Source: a virus. Taken from it: a stretch of DNA of 47,601 nt. Numbering within the stretch: the first letter of the stretch is position 1; the number at the start of each line of letters is the position of its first letter. This document shows, one piece after another, positions 5,420 to 45,151 of this stretch. The stretch lies in the IMG/VR virus record IMGVR_UViG_3300046373_000116, positions 1 through 47,601 of that record; one strand, 5' to 3'. The notes below the pieces were generated by a model. It worked only from the letters and a program-made list of their open reading frames with translations, had not been told where the DNA came from and did not search any database. The position numbers and the translations under genes were made by a program.

Positions 5420-5884
5420 CTAAAACCCCCTACGCCGCATTTCGGCCCTTATTTCGTCTTCTATATCGCGTTTCCAACGTTCGGCGTTCTGCTCTAGCGG
5501 TTTATCGAGAAACTTCGGAATCGTTCCGGCCGTTGTCGGATTAGCGAAAGACTGCTTCGGAAATACGTCGTGAATGTACGTCGCATAGTCGAAGTTGCGT
5601 CCGCCGTTTCTCTCGACCGCCGTTACCGAAATCGCTCCGGTCATCTTACCGGTTTCCGCGTCAACTTCCGTATGAATACCGCGGCGGAGGGTGCCTTTAT
5701 CTAGCGGAGCTAAGTCCGCAGATAGGCGCTTCCATTCGTCCATGACGTCACCAAGTCCGTTGCGCGTTCCTTGTTCGGCCGCTTCCGTTAATCGCCGTCC
5801 GTATCCGCGGAAAAAACGTCCGATAAGATTCTGCGCAAACGAGCCTGGGCGCGCTGTATCGATTTCAATGCGATTACTCGCCAC
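5420..5884 (-). CDS. HK97 gp10-like head-tail joining protein (XkdI-like)
   Basis: The protein is 154 residues and starts at GTG 5884, eight bases after GGAGGTG. Features such as LRRGIHTEVDAETGKMTGAISVTA, the nearby Tyr/Asp-rich YATYIHDVFPKQSF and the C-terminal helix with basic RRRGF fit the gp10/minor-tail U-like group. It overlaps the previous gene by one base. It probably takes part in head-tail completion. Confidence 0.7.
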   Translation of the reverse strand: MASNRIEIDTARPGSFAQNLIGRFFRGYGRRLTEAAEQGTRNGLGDVMDEWKRLSADLAPLDKGTLRRGIHTEVDAETGKMTGAISVTAVERNGGRNFDYATYIHDVFPKQSFANPTTAGTIPKFLDKPLEQNAERWKRDIEDEIRAEMRRRGF

Positions 5885-6201
5885 TATACGAACACCTCCG
5901 TTAATATCGCTTTACCGTTCAGACCGCGTTTTACCGTGATCTTCAGCGGAGTTCGCGCTACTGTGAGGCTTAACTCGTTCGTGTACGTAATTACGTCGTC
6001 ATACGATATGTCCGCCAATTTATCGAATAAGATGCGGAGACTAGCCGTAGCTTCCTCTCCGGTCCGATTCGTGACGATGGCGGTTTCTTCCGTTACGCGC
6101 GCCTTTAGCGTAATAACTGCGCCCGGCAACGGATCTCCCCAACCGTCAACCGCGGATGCCTTCGTAATCGTCACCGTTTGTTTCATCGGAACTAGCGCCA
6201 C
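5884..6201 (-). CDS. Head closure / head-tail adaptor protein (XkdH-like)
   Basis: At 105 residues this is a compact beta-rich protein with MKQTVTITKASAVDGWGDPL followed by ITLKARVTEETAIVTNRTGEE. This is the pattern of phage head-tail joining stoppers of the XkdH/SPP1 gp16 group. The annotated start is GTG at 6201; the ATG five codons later is equally plausible because the SD region AGGGTGG precedes both. It lies between the gp6-like connector and the gp10-like protein, as in PBSX. Confidence 0.7.
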   Translation of the reverse strand: MALVPMKQTVTITKASAVDGWGDPLPGAVITLKARVTEETAIVTNRTGEEATASLRILFDKLADISYDDVITYTNELSLTVARTPLKITVKRGLNGKAILTEVFV

Positions 6202-15211: not shown

Positions 15212-16057
15212 TCTACGTTGGCTATTAAATAGCGCACGTAACATGCCGTCCGGCTCGCCAGGCTTACGGTAGAATACGTATGGATTCAGCGCGGTAAACT
15301 TCGCCCGCCGGTCCTCTACGTTAATCCATTCGCCAATGATGCGCGCCTTACGTAAACGTGCGAGAGACTCTTTCGTCTTAGTCTCCGTCATCCCCACGAT
15401 ATCGCCGATCTCGCTATCCGTTAGGAAGCGTATATCACTCGGATTAACGAATGGGTCTGCGCAGATAAGATTCGTATCATAGTGAACGTACGGCAGCAGC
15501 TTATATACGAAGCCGAGATCCGCCGCGGTCAAATTAAACGACTTCAGCGTAGTAAAGAACGTTTTAATTAGCGCATCGACGTCACCGCTCGCTTTCTTAC
15601 GAAAGTGGTAACGCTCGTTGATCGTAAAAACTCCGCTAGTCTCGAAGATAATACTGCGCGATTCCAGCTCGTCTACAATGGCGCGTGCTGTACGGTTGCT
15701 TACGTCCCATATACGCGCTAGATTCGATAATGTTAGCGGAGATCCTTCGCGGCCTTCCGTAACGAGTACGTTCGTTTTAAACTGTATGTACGGCTGTAGC
15801 ATTAACGTATAGCCGCAGTATTTATTCGATAAGCCGCGCGTTATACCGCGTATGTTGCGCATGTGGCCGAACGAGAAGTGACGCTTATCCCGTTCAAACT
15901 GCGCTGCCTTTTTGCCGGCTTCGTAGTGTTCAAGCGTTTTATATGTGTAAAGGCGGCCGGCTTCGTCTTTCGCCAACCGCTTACTTACTGGCGTTATACT
16001 ACCGATCGGAGCGCCGCTAATTAATCGCGCAATCTTACGTGCTGTATCGTTACTCAC
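15206..16057 (-). CDS. Winged-helix DNA-binding protein, possible replication initiator
   Basis: This 283-residue protein starts at GTG after AAGGTGGCTGCGC. It appears to have two winged-helix domains: one near residues 105-150 (SPLTLSNLARIWDVSNRTARAIVDELESRSIIFE) and one near 205-250 (FLTDSEIGDIVGMTETKTKESLARLRKARIIGEW). Two wHTH units are the plan of many plasmid and phage Rep initiators. Direct repeats lie at its 3' end, and iteron-like repeats lie about 1 kb further on. It could instead be a transcription regulator. The family was not identified with certainty. Confidence 0.6.
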   Translation of the reverse strand: MSNDTARKIARLISGAPIGSITPVSKRLAKDEAGRLYTYKTLEHYEAGKKAAQFERDKRHFSFGHMRNIRGITRGLSNKYCGYTLMLQPYIQFKTNVLVTEGREGSPLTLSNLARIWDVSNRTARAIVDELESRSIIFETSGVFTINERYHFRKKASGDVDALIKTFFTTLKSFNLTAADLGFVYKLLPYVHYDTNLICADPFVNPSDIRFLTDSEIGDIVGMTETKTKESLARLRKARIIGEWINVEDRRAKFTALNPYVFYRKPGEPDGMLRALFNSQRRN

Positions 16058-16403
16058 GCGCAGCCACCTTACCTACGCGATCCGCTATTGCGCTATATAA
16101 CGCTGGATCATTACTGACCGCGAATAAACGCGTCAGATCCGTAGATTTAACATAGCCTGCTTCGTCTGCGTGTCCGATAATCGGCGCTAAAACCGCATAC
16201 TCCACGTCAGCCGTGATGACATTATGCTCAGCGCCTTCCCACGTAATAACTTCGTTCTTACGGAATACACCGTTTGTTACCGCTTCTAATTCGCGAAGAT
16301 CCGCAGTCGCCCGCTTAGCCTCACGTTGTAGCGCCTTTAGTCCGCTGATTGCTTCCGATACGTCTACGTTAACCTTTACGTTTAATCCGCCATTTTCGAC
16401 CAT
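16050..16403 (-). CDS. Hypothetical protein, 117 residues
   Basis: The start follows CGGAGGCGTTGTAA. The N-terminal part (NVDVSEAISGLKALQREAKRATADLRELE) is an amphipathic coiled-coil segment seen in several phage small proteins. The C-terminal half (LAPIIGHADEAGYVKSTDLTRLFAVSND) has no known motif. The gene overlaps the winged-helix gene by 8 bases, so the two are probably co-expressed. Confidence 0.65.
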   Translation of the reverse strand: MVENGGLNVKVNVDVSEAISGLKALQREAKRATADLRELEAVTNGVFRKNEVITWEGAEHNVITADVEYAVLAPIIGHADEAGYVKSTDLTRLFAVSNDPALYSAIADRVGKVAARE

Positions 16404-16520
16404 TTACAACGCCTCCGATTCGAATAGTTACGTAGGTATGCACTCAATTGTGCGGGGAGCGAATCCCATGCGCCTACGCTCGCGATATGACGAGTTGTGA
16501 TTTCGAAACTAAGTCAACGC

Positions 16521-16550
16521 AAAAAAGACGCCCACTTATTTCACGGCGTC
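16521..16550 (-). terminator. Rho-independent terminator (minus strand)
   Basis: Read on the minus strand: GACGCC, a 12-base loop, GGCGTC, then TTTTTT. The stem and U6 tract are classical. It isolates the operon beginning at 16403 from transcription entering from above 16.5 kb. Confidence 0.85.
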
Positions 16551-16721
16551 CAATCTGCGTTATTTACCTGTCTATAACGTACTAGCGTGAGAACGCCTAA
16601 ATTATACGGTCGGAGTCCGAAATAATCCGAAATAATCCGTTAAATGTGGCGAAATTGTGACGTAAAAACACCAACCTCCCATTGATCGTGTATAAACTTA
16701 GCGTATAGTACAGCGACAAAT
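16551..16721. other. Intergenic stretch between two terminators
   Basis: No gene is supported. It contains two tandem TCCGAAATAA copies (16616-16635) and, on the minus strand, an isolated TATAAT at 16601-16606 without a good -35 box. Confidence 0.4.
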
Positions 16722-16740
16722 AAAAAAGCACCGTCAGGCT
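16722..16740 (-). terminator. Terminator of the low-CG two-gene cassette
   Basis: The minus strand reads AGCCTGACGGTGCT followed by TTTTTATTT. The stem is short with one bulged base. It lies 19 bases after the stop of the 55-residue gene, a natural end for that transcript. Confidence 0.55.
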
Positions 16741-16758
16741 CTTTCTGTAAGCTCTGTG

Positions 16759-16926
16759 TTATTTGTTAAGAAATTCTCTTCCTGGTTTAGTGATGTCTTT
16801 GTTGTATTGTTCAATTGATACGCAATAAGAACAACCTGCTCCATAGTGTCCGCATATCATGTTTGATTCTTTGTATCTGTGAATTTTGCAACATTTCTTG
16901 TTCGGGCACTCTTCATTTGTTTTCAT
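16759..16926 (-). CDS. Cys-rich small protein, 55 residues
   Basis: The ATG at 16926 follows GAGGTGATTAATGG and overlaps the upstream stop as ATGA. The protein has seven cysteines arranged as C-x5-CC, C and C-x2-C pairs (ECPNKKCCKIH, MICGHYGAGCSYC), suggesting one or two zinc sites. Codons are AAA/AAC-rich and poor in CG, unlike neighbouring genes, which points to separate acquisition. It is the second gene of a cassette driven by the divergent promoter at 17.23 kb. Function unknown. Confidence 0.75.
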   Translation of the reverse strand: MKTNEECPNKKCCKIHRYKESNMICGHYGAGCSYCVSIEQYNKDITKPGREFLNK

Positions 16927-17180
16927 CCATTAATCACCTCGATTTCCGCATTCAGCATTTCGATCATGTGTCCATGCGCTTGCTGTTCGTTTGTGATTTC
17001 ATTTTGCTTACGTTGCTTGTCCCAACCACGGCTATGCGCCATTTCCACGAAAAAGTCATTGTAATCGTTGGATGCGCTGAACTGCATCGTCACACATTCG
17101 CTTGTATCGAATTCGGGAGTTTCAGCTAATACTTTCTGAGCCATTTCTTTTAAAACTGTTTGGATTGTTTTCATATTCAT
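16923..17180 (-). CDS. Hypothetical acidic protein under divergent promoter, 85 residues
   Basis: A clear SD (AACGGAGGTAATGAAT) precedes the start; the ATG two codons later is also possible. The protein is charged and helical, with VLKEMAQKVLAETPEFDTSECVTMQF and FFVEMAHSRGW in the middle. There is no recognised family. Low CG content sets it apart from the flanking genes. It is the first gene expressed from the operator-covered minus promoter, opposite the Cro-like repressor, so it is a probable repressed early or lysogeny-linked product. Confidence 0.72.
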   Translation of the reverse strand: MNMKTIQTVLKEMAQKVLAETPEFDTSECVTMQFSASNDYNDFFVEMAHSRGWDKQRKQNEITNEQQAHGHMIEMLNAEIEVING

Positions 17181-17195
17181 TACCTCCGTTTTATC

Positions 17196-17281
17196 GACTC
17201 GTTTAACGTGTCGTTCTTATACATTTAATATACCACGACTCGTTTACAGTGTCAACAACTATTTGACACTTTTCCGGTGTC
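17196..17281. promoter_or_regulatory. Three 17-bp operators in a divergent promoter region
   Basis: Sites GACTCGTTTAACGTGTC (17196-17212), GACTCGTTTACAGTGTC (17237-17253) and GACACTTTTCCGGTGTC (17265-17281) share GAC-(T/A)-C at one end, TTT in the middle and GTGTC at the other. The second covers the -35 of the minus promoter; the third covers the -35 and spacer of the plus promoter; the first lies just downstream of the minus start. They are probably bound by the adjacent helix-turn-helix protein. Confidence 0.8.
17227..17255 (-). promoter_or_regulatory. Minus-strand sigma-A promoter for the low-CG cassette
   Basis: TTGACA (17250-17255), a 17-base spacer, then TATATT (17227-17232). It drives the 85- and 55-residue genes. 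Its -35 overlaps operator 2. Confidence 0.85.
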
Positions 17282-17291
17282 GACGTATAAT
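17263..17291 (+). promoter_or_regulatory. Plus-strand consensus sigma-A promoter for the repressor gene
   Basis: TTGACA (17263-17268), a 17-base spacer and TATAAT (17286-17291) form a perfect consensus. The repressor SD follows at about 17302. The -35 and spacer coincide with operator 3, so autoregulation is likely. Confidence 0.92.
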
Positions 17292-17314
17292 CGCTGTATA
17301 ACGGAGGTGTTCGA

Positions 17315-17521
17315 ATGTTAATCCGCTCCAACTTACGCGCCCTGGCCGAAGCTCGCGGCGTATCTATACGAGAAATCGCGCGTGATATCGATTACCGCTT
17401 CGAAAGTGTACGTATAATGTACAATGACGAAATGGAACGTTATCCGCGCGATTTATTGGCGAAACTGTGCGTTTACTTCGGCGTTACGGCGGCCGAGCTG
17501 CTGGTATTAAACGGAGAGTGA
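17315..17521 (+). CDS. Cro/CI-type helix-turn-helix repressor
   Basis: The 68-residue protein starts after ACGGAGGTGTTCGA. It is a single Xre-type HTH domain: RSNLRALAEARGVSIREIARDI, then LLAKLCVYFGVTAAELLVL. Small HTH proteins of this type bind as dimers and act as Cro- or YozG-like repressors. It is one of only three plausible plus-strand genes in the window, read from a consensus promoter covered by operators. Its 3' end overlaps the convergent gene by 15 bases. Confidence 0.88.
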   Translation: MLIRSNLRALAEARGVSIREIARDIDYRFESVRIMYNDEMERYPRDLLAKLCVYFGVTAAELLVLNGE

Positions 17522-18106
17522 GCGCGGATCTGCGGAGTATTTCGTAGCTACGTATCCGGTACTCTCCGCCCATGCCGCGCCTAATCCTACGCGATCGACG
17601 TATTCCGCCGTAAGCTCACCGCCTGTTTCGCGCAGATTGTATGTCACTAACGGACTAGCGGACGTATCGCGTTTATACTGCGCGCTTCTTCGGCGGTTAT
17701 TGCCGCGAGCTTCAGCGTCCATGAACGATTGTTCCGCCGGTGTTCTGCGCCGCTTGATCGGTTTAGCGTGATTAGTGCCGTCCGTGCCGTATTCCTCCGC
17801 GCCTTTTAGCGAAGTCTCGCGCCCTCTCCGTAAATCGAATTGCCATTCGGACATAAACGGATACTCGTTATGCTCGATTTTATACGGATCGAGGTCCGCC
17901 AACTCTTCGTTAAGTATCGCGTCAGATAGGCGCTCTAATTGGCGGCCCTCTGGCGTTTCTCCGATGTCGCGTACATATGCGTCGGTTAGCGCGCGGACGT
18001 CTGTAATGCGGTCAGAACGCGGCGAAATCATAGCGGATATCAACGCAGATACGGCGGTAGCAAATTGCGTTTTATAGTCGGCGGTGATATCGAAAATGTA
18101 CGTCAA
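17507..18106 (-). CDS. Hypothetical protein, 199 residues
   Basis: The start is TTG at 18106, six bases after GGGGGAGG and sharing TTGA with the upstream stop. LTYIFDITADYKTQFATAVSALISAMISPRSDR suggests a helical N-terminus. The middle is basic (KPIKRRRTPAEQSFMDAEARGNNRRR), which could bind nucleic acid. I do not recognise the family. It is likely co-transcribed with the sigma-region-4-like gene and the methyltransferase. Confidence 0.62.
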   Translation of the reverse strand: MTYIFDITADYKTQFATAVSALISAMISPRSDRITDVRALTDAYVRDIGETPEGRQLERLSDAILNEELADLDPYKIEHNEYPFMSEWQFDLRRGRETSLKGAEEYGTDGTNHAKPIKRRRTPAEQSFMDAEARGNNRRRSAQYKRDTSASPLVTYNLRETGGELTAEYVDRVGLGAAWAESTGYVATKYSADPRSLSV

Positions 18107-18453
18107 TTTAGCGCCTCCCCCTTCATAGCTGCTCCGTTGTTCCACCGTTTATAAACCGCCGCAATCCGCTGAGCCGCTACTTCTATATGCGCGCTAACAT
18201 TCTTCTGCGATATCCCCATAATGCGCGCCGCTGCCGTTTGGTCCGTTCCGACACCGTACACCCACGCTATAGCTTCCGTTTGGCGATCCGTAAGGCCGGC
18301 GGATTCGATCGCGCTGTGTAAATCGATAATCGTAGCGCCAGCGTCCGTACTGTGACCGCGCTCAGCGTTAATTTCGTGGCGAGCGGAGAGTAGCGCCTTG
18401 ACTCCGCGTGCGTCTTGTATAGCGTAAGATTTCGTTTCACTTTTGTCCGTCAT
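18103..18453 (-). CDS. Sigma-70 region 4-like / ArpU-type regulator
   Basis: The 116-residue protein begins after CCGGAGGTGAGCGCGAT. Residues about 50-100 read LTDRQTEAIAWVYGVGTDQTAAARIMGISQKNVSAHIEVAAQRIAAVY, a sigma region 4 HTH with the two-helix spacing of late-gene activators such as ArpU/RinA. No region 2 is present. It may control late transcription together with host RNA polymerase (inference). Confidence 0.75.
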   Translation of the reverse strand: MTDKSETKSYAIQDARGVKALLSARHEINAERGHSTDAGATIIDLHSAIESAGLTDRQTEAIAWVYGVGTDQTAAARIMGISQKNVSAHIEVAAQRIAAVYKRWNNGAAMKGEALN

Positions 18454-26835: not shown

Positions 26836-27846
26836 TTATAACTGTATATACACGCGAGAATCGATAATTGGGACATCCGTAGAAAAATTAGTTAGCGAGG
26901 CGCGCCATAAATCACGCGAGTCGACGATATAACCGTAAGCTGCATTGTCTGAACGTATCTGCGCAATCGAACGGCGGTTATCGTAGCACCAATTAACGAA
27001 CGTCGTGTACTCGGTTACGCTCATTCCGTTTAAATCCGCGAGACACGCTACGACATGGCGCAGACGTTTCCGAATACTAGCGCTTTTGGACTGCGCCCAT
27101 ACGAACGGATTGCGGTCGCTCTTCGCTATATTTAGATCAGCGCGGATAGGTACTAAGTTTCCGAAGTAACTTCCGCCGTGACCGGTATTTAAAGCTACGA
27201 AATGGTCCAGGTGGATCTTGTTGGTGCTTCCCGTTAAGCAACAGGCGTGTAGAAATGTTTCGTTTATAGCTACTAACTCAGACTCCGTTATAGTTGCTAT
27301 TAAATTTTTACCTATTGCCAAACGATTGTGTCGGACGGCTTTCTTTGCTTCCGGATTATTCCTCATCCATTTAGAGACGTAACCTGCCGCGCAGCTTTTA
27401 CAATTCCACGCCAATCCGTAAGGCATTCGTGGATGTCTACTGTATGATAACAGCGGTTTTGGTACGCGACATTCACCGCAAGTTTTATACACTTGCTCTA
27501 GCAATGGTCGGACGCCTTTTCGCAGGAAACACTCGAAGATTCCTCCGTATTTACTAACGATATATCTGCGGTAGCTGGCGTCCTTCTGGCTTAAATCTAA
27601 GCGGCCGCCATTCCACAGGGTTTCGATATCTCTGTCGATCGCATCTTCGTAATCTAAGAAATCAACCTCCGCAGAAGTTTCCGCTAGCCCTTCGTCGAAC
27701 GCGACGTACGTCTCTATTCCGCGTGATTTAATAATTCGGTTGACAACTTCGTGGTTTAAACGTAATATACGCGCGACTCTATTTCGCGTCATTCCCGCGT
27801 CCAGTAGTTCCTGAATCGATTCCGCTAATTGCACTTTGGTACGCAG
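26836..27846 (-). CDS. HNH homing endonuclease with N-terminal HTH, probable CTG start
   Basis: A resolvase-like HTH comes first (QELLDAGMTRNRVARILRLNHEVVNRIIKSRG), then a treble-clef zinc site (CGECRVPK and CKSCAAGY) and an HNH-type segment CCLTGSTNKIHLDHFVALNTGHGGSYFGNLVPI. The reading frame upstream runs into the nrdJ terminator and is not genic. After AAAGGAG, the only near in-frame start is CTG at 27846 (nine bases); GTG at 27834 is too far from the SD. The gene lies between nrdJ and phoH as a free-standing insertion. Confidence 0.82.
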   Translation of the reverse strand: MRTKVQLAESIQELLDAGMTRNRVARILRLNHEVVNRIIKSRGIETYVAFDEGLAETSAEVDFLDYEDAIDRDIETLWNGGRLDLSQKDASYRRYIVSKYGGIFECFLRKGVRPLLEQVYKTCGECRVPKPLLSYSRHPRMPYGLAWNCKSCAAGYVSKWMRNNPEAKKAVRHNRLAIGKNLIATITESELVAINETFLHACCLTGSTNKIHLDHFVALNTGHGGSYFGNLVPIRADLNIAKSDRNPFVWAQSKSASIRKRLRHVVACLADLNGMSVTEYTTFVNWCYDNRRSIAQIRSDNAAYGYIVDSRDLWRASLTNFSTDVPIIDSRVYIQL

Positions 27847-42833: not shown

Positions 42834-43427
42834 TCAGTTGGCTTTCGAAAGGGTCTGCTGGCAGTGGGTTCTAAATCGCGTAATGAATTTACGGTGAGAT
42901 TCGGTATTTCCTCCGTGTCGTTCCGCCAAGAACGATGCAGTCTCCGAATCATTAAAGTAACCGTCTTTCCAAGCGTTTAGAATCGAAAGTTTCCGAATGT
43001 CGTCTCCCGCCAAGGAGGCGACTTTTTCATTTGCTAAGAAGTCCGCGTCGATGATCGCCAAATCATCTTGTAATTCATACCTTCGTGAACTTCCTTCATA
43101 ACCAGTATCTTCTTCGGAGAGAGCGTCAAGCGATAACATTCGCCGCCTATTCTTCCCCCTAACTATATGCACCTTCGCTAGTTCGAAAAACCAAAACCTG
43201 ACATACCTTATGAAACTGCCGCGGCTTGGCTCGAACTTCCTAACTGCTAATTCAATTCTCGAATAGCAATTATTTTCAAAAGATGACTGACTTACAATAA
43301 GACTAGCGTACCGTTCGGACAATTCACTAATGTCCTTCCAAAAGTAGGATTTAATCTCCCACATTGACTCAGTACATCCACCTTTAGCCTTCAGCATTAA
43401 CGTATTTAGTTTTCTACTATCTGTCAT
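42834..43427 (-). CDS. Sigma-factor-like protein, 197 residues
   Basis: The ATG 43427 follows GGTGATTGG; the longer frame starts lack an SD. TLMLKAKGGCTESMWEIKSYFWKDI, then AVRKFEPSRGSFIRYVRFWFFELAKVHIVRGKNRRRMLSLDAL resembles region 2 of phage or TcdR/UviA-type sigma factors, followed by a helical C-terminal region (LSILNAWKDGYFNDSETASFLAERHGG) with a possible region 4. Codons are less CG-rich than those of neighbouring genes. It could redirect host RNA polymerase; the assignment is moderate. Confidence 0.6.
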   Translation of the reverse strand: MTDSRKLNTLMLKAKGGCTESMWEIKSYFWKDISELSERYASLIVSQSSFENNCYSRIELAVRKFEPSRGSFIRYVRFWFFELAKVHIVRGKNRRRMLSLDALSEEDTGYEGSSRRYELQDDLAIIDADFLANEKVASLAGDDIRKLSILNAWKDGYFNDSETASFLAERHGGNTESHRKFITRFRTHCQQTLSKAN

Positions 43428-43517
43428 CCAATCACCATTCCCTTCATAACTATATATACACAAGACATTTGAAAATTGGGACATGTTAATATAAAACTTT
43501 TTTTCGCAGCTCCGCTT

Positions 43518-43563: not shown

Positions 43564-43818
43564 ATGCCACGGTATAAAACCGGAGGCTGCCGCTTATCTC
43601 ATTTCCTCTACGTTATCGATAAGACAGCGCAGGATTGCGCTAACGGTACTGGCGTTCGTAAGAACACTATCTCGCAGTATATTAGCGGTAAACGCGGAAT
43701 GTCGCTAATGATTGCGGTATCAATCGTCGAGTGGTTGAACAAATATCTCGACGTTCCCATCACTGAGCGCGACTTATACGAATTGATACCGTTAGAGGAC
43801 GGCGGCAGCAAAAAGTAG
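43564..43818 (+). CDS. Helix-turn-helix regulator, 84 residues
   Basis: SD ACGGAGGTTCGGCG. RLSHFLYVIDKTAQDCANGTGVRKNTISQYISGKRGMSLMIAVSIVEWLNKYLDVPI is an Xre-type HTH. It is one of the lone plus-strand genes and is divergent from the sigma-like gene, so the two likely form a control point. Target sites were not found by eye. Confidence 0.8.
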   Translation: MPRYKTGGCRLSHFLYVIDKTAQDCANGTGVRKNTISQYISGKRGMSLMIAVSIVEWLNKYLDVPITERDLYELIPLEDGGSKK

Positions 43819-43901: not shown

Positions 43902-44927
43902 CTACGTATACATTTCGACAAATTTCGATAATAGTCCGCCTGTCCTAGTTCTCCGCGCCCTCCTTACGTAAGCCGCGATATCCGCCCCGTTCATATGCGC
44001 TTCGTTGACGTCCTTATACCGCCCGCTCACCGTAGCCACCTTTACGCGCAGATATGGCGCCAACTCCGCTATCACTTTCCGCTGCCAAGCACGACCCGCC
44101 GCGTCATTATCGCGGATTACTACGATCTCCTCTAACGGTGAGCGGACTATTATGTCACGTTTAACCGCGTTAAAGTTAGATCCTCCGGTCGCCACCGCCG
44201 GTATGCCCACGCTCATTAGCGTCATTGCGTCGACCTCTGCTTCTACGATGACGGCGCGTTTAATGGCGCGGTTATACACTACGTTAATTCCGTATATTAG
44301 CGATCCGATCGGCCGCCCACCTTTCGCGTACCAAAACGCCTTACTATCGACGCGGCGGTACTTAACGTTAGCGAGCGATCCGTCCGCGTTGAACCACGGT
44401 ATGGTAACAGCGCGGCGTTTACGGTCGTAGCCGACTTCGCACAGGCGCTGGACCGCTTCGGAGATTCCACGCGTTTCCAAATATGGCGACCTATAACTGT
44501 ATTCGGCGAGAATCGAACGCTTTATGTCCGTGACTTTCGGCGCATTTATACGGAGTCGCGGCACAGTCAACGTAATTGTGTCCCGTAGGTATTCCGCGCT
44601 ATACTTGGCGAGTAAATATTCCGCAGCTTCTTCCGTCGTTGTGCGGTCGAGGAACGCGATCAGCCGTACGAATCCACCGCGACTATGATCCGTATCCGCT
44701 GCGCCAGCGTCGCCCCAATCGCCGGCCCGCGCTGAAGCCGTATCTTCCGTGTAGACGTAGAAGGACGGCGTTTTATCGTAGCGGAACGGTGAGACGGCGA
44801 CTAGGCGGTCGGACGTCCAGCGCGCTTTTTCCCAATCGTAGCGCATGAGTTCCGCGGTGATATCGACGGCGACGGGGATCGCGTTTCCGTCGGGTCCGCG
44901 TATATGGAGCGTAGTGTTAGCGGTCAT
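43902..44927 (-). CDS. TOPRIM DNA primase (DnaG-type, zinc-less)
   Basis: 341 residues after AGAGGGAGCCGCTGA. The TOPRIM core has VIVEAEVDAMTLMSVG (Glu, near residue 225) and EEIVVIRDNDAAGRAW (D-x-D, near 270). The N-terminal part (SPFRYDKTPSFYVYTED...AGDWGDAG...RGGFVRLIAFLDRTTTEEAAEYLL) follows the CHC2 zinc-domain plan, but its Cys/His ligands are missing. It makes RNA primers next to the DnaB-like helicase. Start overlaps the Xre gene by four bases. Confidence 0.85.
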   Translation of the reverse strand: MTANTTLHIRGPDGNAIPVAVDITAELMRYDWEKARWTSDRLVAVSPFRYDKTPSFYVYTEDTASARAGDWGDAGAADTDHSRGGFVRLIAFLDRTTTEEAAEYLLAKYSAEYLRDTITLTVPRLRINAPKVTDIKRSILAEYSYRSPYLETRGISEAVQRLCEVGYDRKRRAVTIPWFNADGSLANVKYRRVDSKAFWYAKGGRPIGSLIYGINVVYNRAIKRAVIVEAEVDAMTLMSVGIPAVATGGSNFNAVKRDIIVRSPLEEIVVIRDNDAAGRAWQRKVIAELAPYLRVKVATVSGRYKDVNEAHMNGADIAAYVRRARRTRTGGLLSKFVEMYT

Positions 44928-45151
44928 TCAGCGGCTCCCTCTAGCGGAGCTAACGTAATTATTTCGCGGATATCCGTGATATTCAACGCGTTCGCTATCC
45001 GTTCAATATGGTCTATCGCCAGGCGTTCGGGTAATCCGCGGTAAATGTTGCTAATAGCGTTAGGACGGAGGCCGGTCATTTCCGCCAATTGCTTCTGATT
45101 TATTCCGCGTTTCTTTAATAGCGCTCCTATGCGTAGTTCAATCCGATGCAT
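44924..45151 (-). CDS. Xre-type HTH regulator, 75 residues
   Basis: IGALLKKRGINQKQLAEMTGLRPNAISNIYRGLPERLAIDHIERIANALNI is a full Cro/CI-type HTH. SD GAAAGGAGCCAATTT. A promoter lies directly upstream and it is the first gene of the transcript into primase, so it may autoregulate early replication genes. Confidence 0.88.
   Translation of the reverse strand: MHRIELRIGALLKKRGINQKQLAEMTGLRPNAISNIYRGLPERLAIDHIERIANALNITDIREIITLAPLEGAAE

Follow-up and report, generated by a model that had tools for sequence, protein, structure and literature searches.

A rightward gene for a predicted single-domain repressor of 68 residues and a leftward pair of small genes, hereafter the cargo, diverge from an intergenic region of 134 bp (17181-17314). 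As shown in Table 1, this region holds two promoters and three putative operators. The window, i.e., the whole 47.6-kb stretch of DNA analyzed here, is an IMG/VR phage record with genes for a tail sheath, a portal, a terminase, PolA, a ribonucleotide reductase and a thymidylate synthase, and nearly all of its genes are oriented leftward.

Table 1. Features of the divergent locus and its borders, in window positions
Feature	Position	Strand	Remarks
g16050	16050..16403	-	backbone gene; conserved left border of slot
hairpin GACGCC...GGCGTC-T6, stronger-looking candidate terminator	16522..16551	-	folding: -11.9 kcal/mol, z -1.8; upstream of g16050
weak hairpin and U run, candidate terminator	16722..16745	-	folding: -6.7 kcal/mol, z -1.9
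cargo gene 2, 55 aa, Cys-rich	16759..16926	-	orphan; 4-base overlap with gene 1
cargo gene 1, 85 aa	16923..17180	-	orphan; 83 aa from better-spaced ATG at 17174
putative operator O1 GACTCGTTTAACGTGTC	17196..17212		cargo leader, about +8 to +24; 41 bp from O2
cargo promoter TTGACA-17-TATATT (11/12 consensus)	17227..17255	-	promoter scan; TG upstream of -10
putative operator O2 GACTCGTTTACAGTGTC	17237..17253		overlaps -35 of cargo promoter; 28 bp from O3
repressor promoter TTGACA-17-TATAAT (12/12 consensus)	17263..17291	+	promoter scan
putative operator O3 GACACTTTTCCGGTGTC	17265..17281		overlaps -35 of repressor promoter
repressor SD GGAGGTG	about 17303-17309	+	upstream of repressor gene
predicted repressor, 68 aa, HTH_26 (Cro/C1-type), single domain	17315..17521	+	PF13443 match
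g17507 (phrog_13088)	17507..18145	-	backbone gene; conserved right border of slot
sigma-factor-like gene (phrog_3512)	18103..18453	-	conserved backbone

The locus and its cargo genes

The repressor matched the PF13443 profile over residues 6-66 with 42.1 bits (cut-off 22), which places it in HTH_26 and agrees with the 68-residue repressor gene that a first-pass annotation had read from the sequence. The protein has neither a sensor nor a cleavage domain. The same annotation had described a 134-base spacer with two near-consensus promoters of 17-base spacing, which the promoter scan bore out, and three 17-bp sites on both -35 regions and the cassette start; O3 and O2 indeed lie on the -35 boxes, and O1 lies in the leader. 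Its wording that the repressor gene and the cassette face each other was mistaken, as the two diverge. When the whole window was scanned, exact matches to GACNC-N7-GNGTC (17 bp) were found only at 17196, 17237 and 17265; random Markov sequence of the same size yielded 0.9 scattered sites, with any two of them within 100 bp in 2/300 runs. Each -35 box of the switch doubles as an operator half-site (TTGACNC), and 7 bp separate the two boxes.

ORFs and base composition confirmed a low-CpG cargo of two genes, for 85 and 55 residues, the latter Cys-rich. This cargo is foreign in composition: its GC content is 0.386 vs. 0.509, and its observed/expected CpG ratio falls in the lowest 0.2% of windows, the low-CpG stretch extending over about 16404-17180. 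The SD spacing of cargo gene 1 favors the second ATG, and the Cys-rich protein may be metal-binding. Elsewhere, a second low-GC, low-CpG island (42834-43484) holds a gene of 216 aa without a Pfam match, whose codon use is the most atypical in the window, and a third low-CpG stretch (27150-27700) lies within an endonuclease VII-like gene.

A search for the cargo pair in other genomes, suggested by the first-pass annotation, gave no relative of either protein in IMG/VR or the phage collection. This absence weighs little, because tblastn is blind to such short sequences: a membrane-peptide query gave no match in annotated phages by tblastn, yet phage Neutron encodes a homologue. Neither protein matched a family in Pfam, PHROGs or NCBIfam; a BglII match to a cargo protein (E 0.045) was below threshold and was rejected. 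Single-sequence fold predictions of the two proteins reached pLDDT values of 51 and 66, too poor for fold searches.

The cassette had also been said to end in a terminator. A modest hairpin with a U run does stand beside the 55-aa gene (z -1.9), but a strict terminator scan misses it and found none at all; the stronger-looking hairpin lies about 200 bp beyond. These features bear on the idea that the switch times the expression of the replication and packaging genes downstream, the leftward promoter driving rep, terS and the genes that follow, with the cargo simply placed in its leader. Such a role would fit the genes beyond the cargo, all of which run leftward, but it is made very unlikely by the two candidate terminators, by a 355-bp gap ahead of g16050 and by the Halcyonevirus phages, which keep the same backbone without the switch.

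Operators, recognition helix and spread of the switch family

We found at least 27 distinct copies of the switch in phages, prophages and related elements of Paenibacillus and the related genera Cohnella, Brevibacillus, Fictibacillus and Pseudalkalibacillus. Relatives of the window's repressor are 54-85% identical to it. The window's switch conforms to the definition of the family, i.e., at least two GACNC-N7-GNGTC sites upstream and an O2-O3 distance of 28 bp. Protein searches alone recovered 14 viral relatives; in 12 of these the 28-bp operator pair is exact, and in one more it has one mismatch. Conversely, searching IMG/VR with the operator pair only returned 21 viral stretches, 19 of which have a member of this repressor family beside the pair. 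L018 and L028, where high-GC palindromes match the operator pair and no repressor of this family is present, were set aside. In ten gene-carrying bacterial genomes of 4-7.5 Mb, the pair occurs 0-2 times each, only at the switch, and a reversed-pattern control gave no match in the same ten genomes; within one family, 10 of 394 genomes have the pair. In one of these 10, L067, the repressor was missed by the motif, yet a divergent homologue is present.

The bacterial relatives of the repressor lie mostly on large chromosomal contigs, so these copies were taken as prophages; such integrated relatives also have other HTH_3 genes, and their tyrosine integrase lies a long way from the switch. A further copy, L073, is on the circular 68.8-kb P. 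amylolyticus plasmid pY5S7-2, with an O2-O3 spacing of 27 and a 149-aa orphan as the divergent gene. L040 (Brevibacillus sp. SYP-B805), the same phage as L026, has tandem switches about 1.3 kb apart that differ in both repressor and cargo.

The presence of the operators follows the recognition helix. Two or more sites lie upstream in 31 of the 33 loci whose helix reads YRF[ED][ST]VR or a near-variant, vs. 0/6 loci with another helix (Fisher p = 9e-6, an optimistic value because the loci are related by descent and not independent). Two sites were found in 17/6,954 random windows of the same loci. The loci with the helix and without the sites are L013 and the truncated L044. In L043 (Brevibacillus, 5884-5967), the helix is YRLESVR and the outer half-sites read GTCTC instead of GACTC. 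A repressor clade from Paenibacillus tyrfis and relatives (L048, L050, L051, L052 and L054) shows just two sites, 36 bp apart, with no obvious cargo diverging nearby. YopB of Bacillus phage SPbeta, an HTH protein 52% identical to the repressor, was considered as sharing the operator and rejected, since its helix is DHEYPTVR and no GACNC operators lie upstream.

The geometry of the switch is nearly invariant. The O2-O3 distance is 28 bp in the 26 measured switches; this spacing is required by the pattern search, and the protein-found set, which is free of that requirement, mostly agrees. The O1-O2 distance is mostly 37-42 bp and sometimes 30, and O1 is absent from some copies. A -35 box beginning with TTGAC, fused to an operator half-site, is present on the repressor side in 26/26 switches and on the cargo side in 25/26, and the boxes are always 7 bp apart. 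With its -35 boxes inside the operators, this fixed arrangement would represent a minimal natural divergent switch, testable and reusable, that comes in 27 natural variants and with a recognition helix that varies along with the sites. Based on this comparison with other phages, the compact divergent switch with three operators that the first-pass annotation had predicted receives strong support.

A slot with exchangeable cargo

The DNA similarity search of the window against phages gave no match; its PolA shares 66% identity with the PolA of the Paenibacillus larvae phages Scottie and Tripp. In phages like the window's, the backbone reads dNMP kinase, g19766, (methyltransferase), the sigma-like gene, g17507 and the repressor, followed, across the divergence, by the cargo, g16050, rep, terS and terL. 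The switch and its cargo thus occupy a fixed slot between g17507 and g16050 in which the cargo varies. In other phages, membrane micro-peptides are the cargo of 9 switches; they are 33-50 aa long, most have a basic tail, and a 28-aa membrane partner often accompanies them. Two switches have a Zn-ribbon protein of 93 aa and two a protein of 73 aa, and the remaining cargo comprises about ten orphans. A membrane peptide of 33-44 aa, mostly with a basic tail, together with a second one of 27-29 aa recurs as a pair (L002, L010, L016, L029, L032, L039 and L046), and the two may form a two-part small membrane system.

The cargo differs even among relatives whose repressors are about 80% identical. 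On the repressor tree, which is weakly resolved, the 9 members with the membrane-peptide label require 8 changes, a number not below that for shuffled labels, and well-supported branches force at least 3 changes. Scottie and Tripp share the backbone and have no such repressor; between the same border genes, Tripp carries a HicA-like gene (below the Pfam cut-off) and a HicB-like gene, and those of Scottie enclose a membrane peptide of 31 aa along with a small HTH gene. Because the content varies between the same borders, also in these two phages, the slot, as judged from gene order, is an accessory-gene site. The replacement of the cargo by unrelated genes in related phages, such as HicA/HicB in Tripp, likewise supports the view that the window's cargo is a foreign accessory module of the moron type; this pair would have been imported recently.

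Small proteins next to a local repressor, with HicA/HicB in the slot of Tripp, could also point to a toxin-antitoxin system, with the HTH protein acting as antitoxin to the small cargo proteins. We consider this highly improbable, and the toxin-type reading of the first-pass annotation is treated here only as a rival. Type II pairs share one operon and are conserved together, whereas here the repressor and the cargo diverge; moreover, the conserved repressor goes with unrelated cargo in different phages, so it cannot be a specific protein antitoxin for all of it.

The cargo most likely has a host-facing accessory function wanted early or at low dose, for example in anti-defence, in exclusion or as a kind of toxin, although none of the cargo found has a proven function of these kinds. 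Not all of it need be host-facing, because a more distant repressor clade of four (L014/L031, L022, L027 and L034) is divergent to a XerC/D-like tyrosine recombinase, an arrangement that suggests self-limited expression of the recombinase.

Proposed control mechanism and related systems

We favor the reading that the switch is probably a self-contained control module placed before exchangeable accessory cargo in a fixed slot of a Bacillales phage group. The 68-residue protein, presumably as a dimer, would bind the GACNC-N7-GNGTC palindromes. Because the -35 boxes coincide with operator half-sites, occupation of O2 by a dimer would silence the cargo promoter and occupation of O3 the repressor's own, and O1 in the leader would strengthen the repression of the cargo. 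Two polymerases probably could not occupy the -35 boxes together, as these are just 7 bp apart, and the promoters would compete. The switch would be open when a repressor-free genome enters the cell, giving a short burst of cargo and repressor, after which it would shut itself down and remain so in the lysogen; the absence of sensor and cleavage domains is what suggests this self-limiting logic.

The switch would most likely control accessory genes in the manner of an anti-CRISPR/Aca unit, free of repression at entry and shut thereafter. In anti-CRISPR operons controlled by Aca1, Aca2 or Aca3, a small HTH protein is the predicted repressor of its own and the accessory genes via inverted repeats overlapping the -35; promoters are strong, and different accessory genes occur with a conserved repressor (PMC8434428). 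The likeness lies in the control logic and not in the gene order. Inverted repeats on the -35 or -10 of the accessory promoter, a feature of Aca units, are found in the switch, whereas its repressor is divergent and has its own promoter instead of residing in the accessory operon. Additionally, unlike those operons, the switch has three operators and no known anti-CRISPR as cargo, and Aca2 has a separate dimerization domain while the switch repressor is only 68 aa. If the cargo is host-facing, the operator pair could guide searches for new accessory genes of phages, much as aca genes have done for anti-CRISPRs; with 20 fixed bases, the pair has essentially no chance matches in a low-GC genome. 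A wider reading is tentative, and we would sooner doubt it than rely on it: the switch may be a standardized "socket", a mobile repressor/operator controller with back-to-back, mutually exclusive promoters and operator half-sites as their -35 boxes. Bacillales temperate phages would insert unrelated small genes for host takeover or anti-defence into this controller, and new genes of this kind could be predicted from the operator pair by itself.

The main rival is a prophage-induction module. Silpe et al. described divergent modules of a transcription factor and a small protein (TF-smORF) in linear plasmid-like prophages (phages VP882, 72, 63, Apop and ARM81ld) that induce the prophage, the factor activating the small gene and some modules answering quorum signals (PMC10432266). 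By analogy, the HTH protein would control a divergent small protein that inactivates the master repressor. The layout is the same, with a divergent regulator and homologue-less small proteins apart from the main repressor, and XRE proteins take part there. Nevertheless, the factor activates in those modules, whereas in the switch the sites cover both consensus -35 boxes, a layout that predicts repression; the 68-aa protein has no sensor domain, and in some relatives the cargo is a recombinase. On this balance, an induction module is unlikely.

Lambda-type CI/Cro immunity regions combine divergent promoters, multiple operators and autoregulation. The divergent repressor, the three operators and the predicted autoregulation of the switch recall them, and the switch is conserved in temperate relatives and neither of the two Halcyonevirus phages checked has it, as might be expected of the phage's own lysogeny switch. 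We disfavor this explanation as improbable, since the switch is neither integrase-adjacent nor the sole candidate repressor: its place is in the middle of the genome, ahead of the packaging genes, and in relatives the integrase is tens of kb away; other HTH_3 matches occur in every relative searched, and the window itself has two, near 43.6 and 45.0 kb. Furthermore, the divergent partner is not conserved, and two switches of this kind, 1.3 kb from each other, coexist in one Brevibacillus prophage. A profile search of the 47.6-kb fragment for an integrase (PF00589, PF00239) gave no match. The small HTH genes near 43.6 and 45.0 kb of the window (43564-43818, +; 44924-45151, -) are candidates for the main lysogeny control of the phage.

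The accessory-gene controller that we favor was not described in the open-licence papers covered by our literature search. A close counterpart among known phages is found in Paenibacillus larvae phages of the Fern type (Neutron_28 and others), whose repressor belongs to the same family (59% identity), with three operators at 28 and 39 bp and a small membrane peptide divergent from the HTH gene. That gene differs from the window's in lying between the lysis genes and the integrase of a different phage type, where it is annotated merely as a helix-turn-helix regulator.
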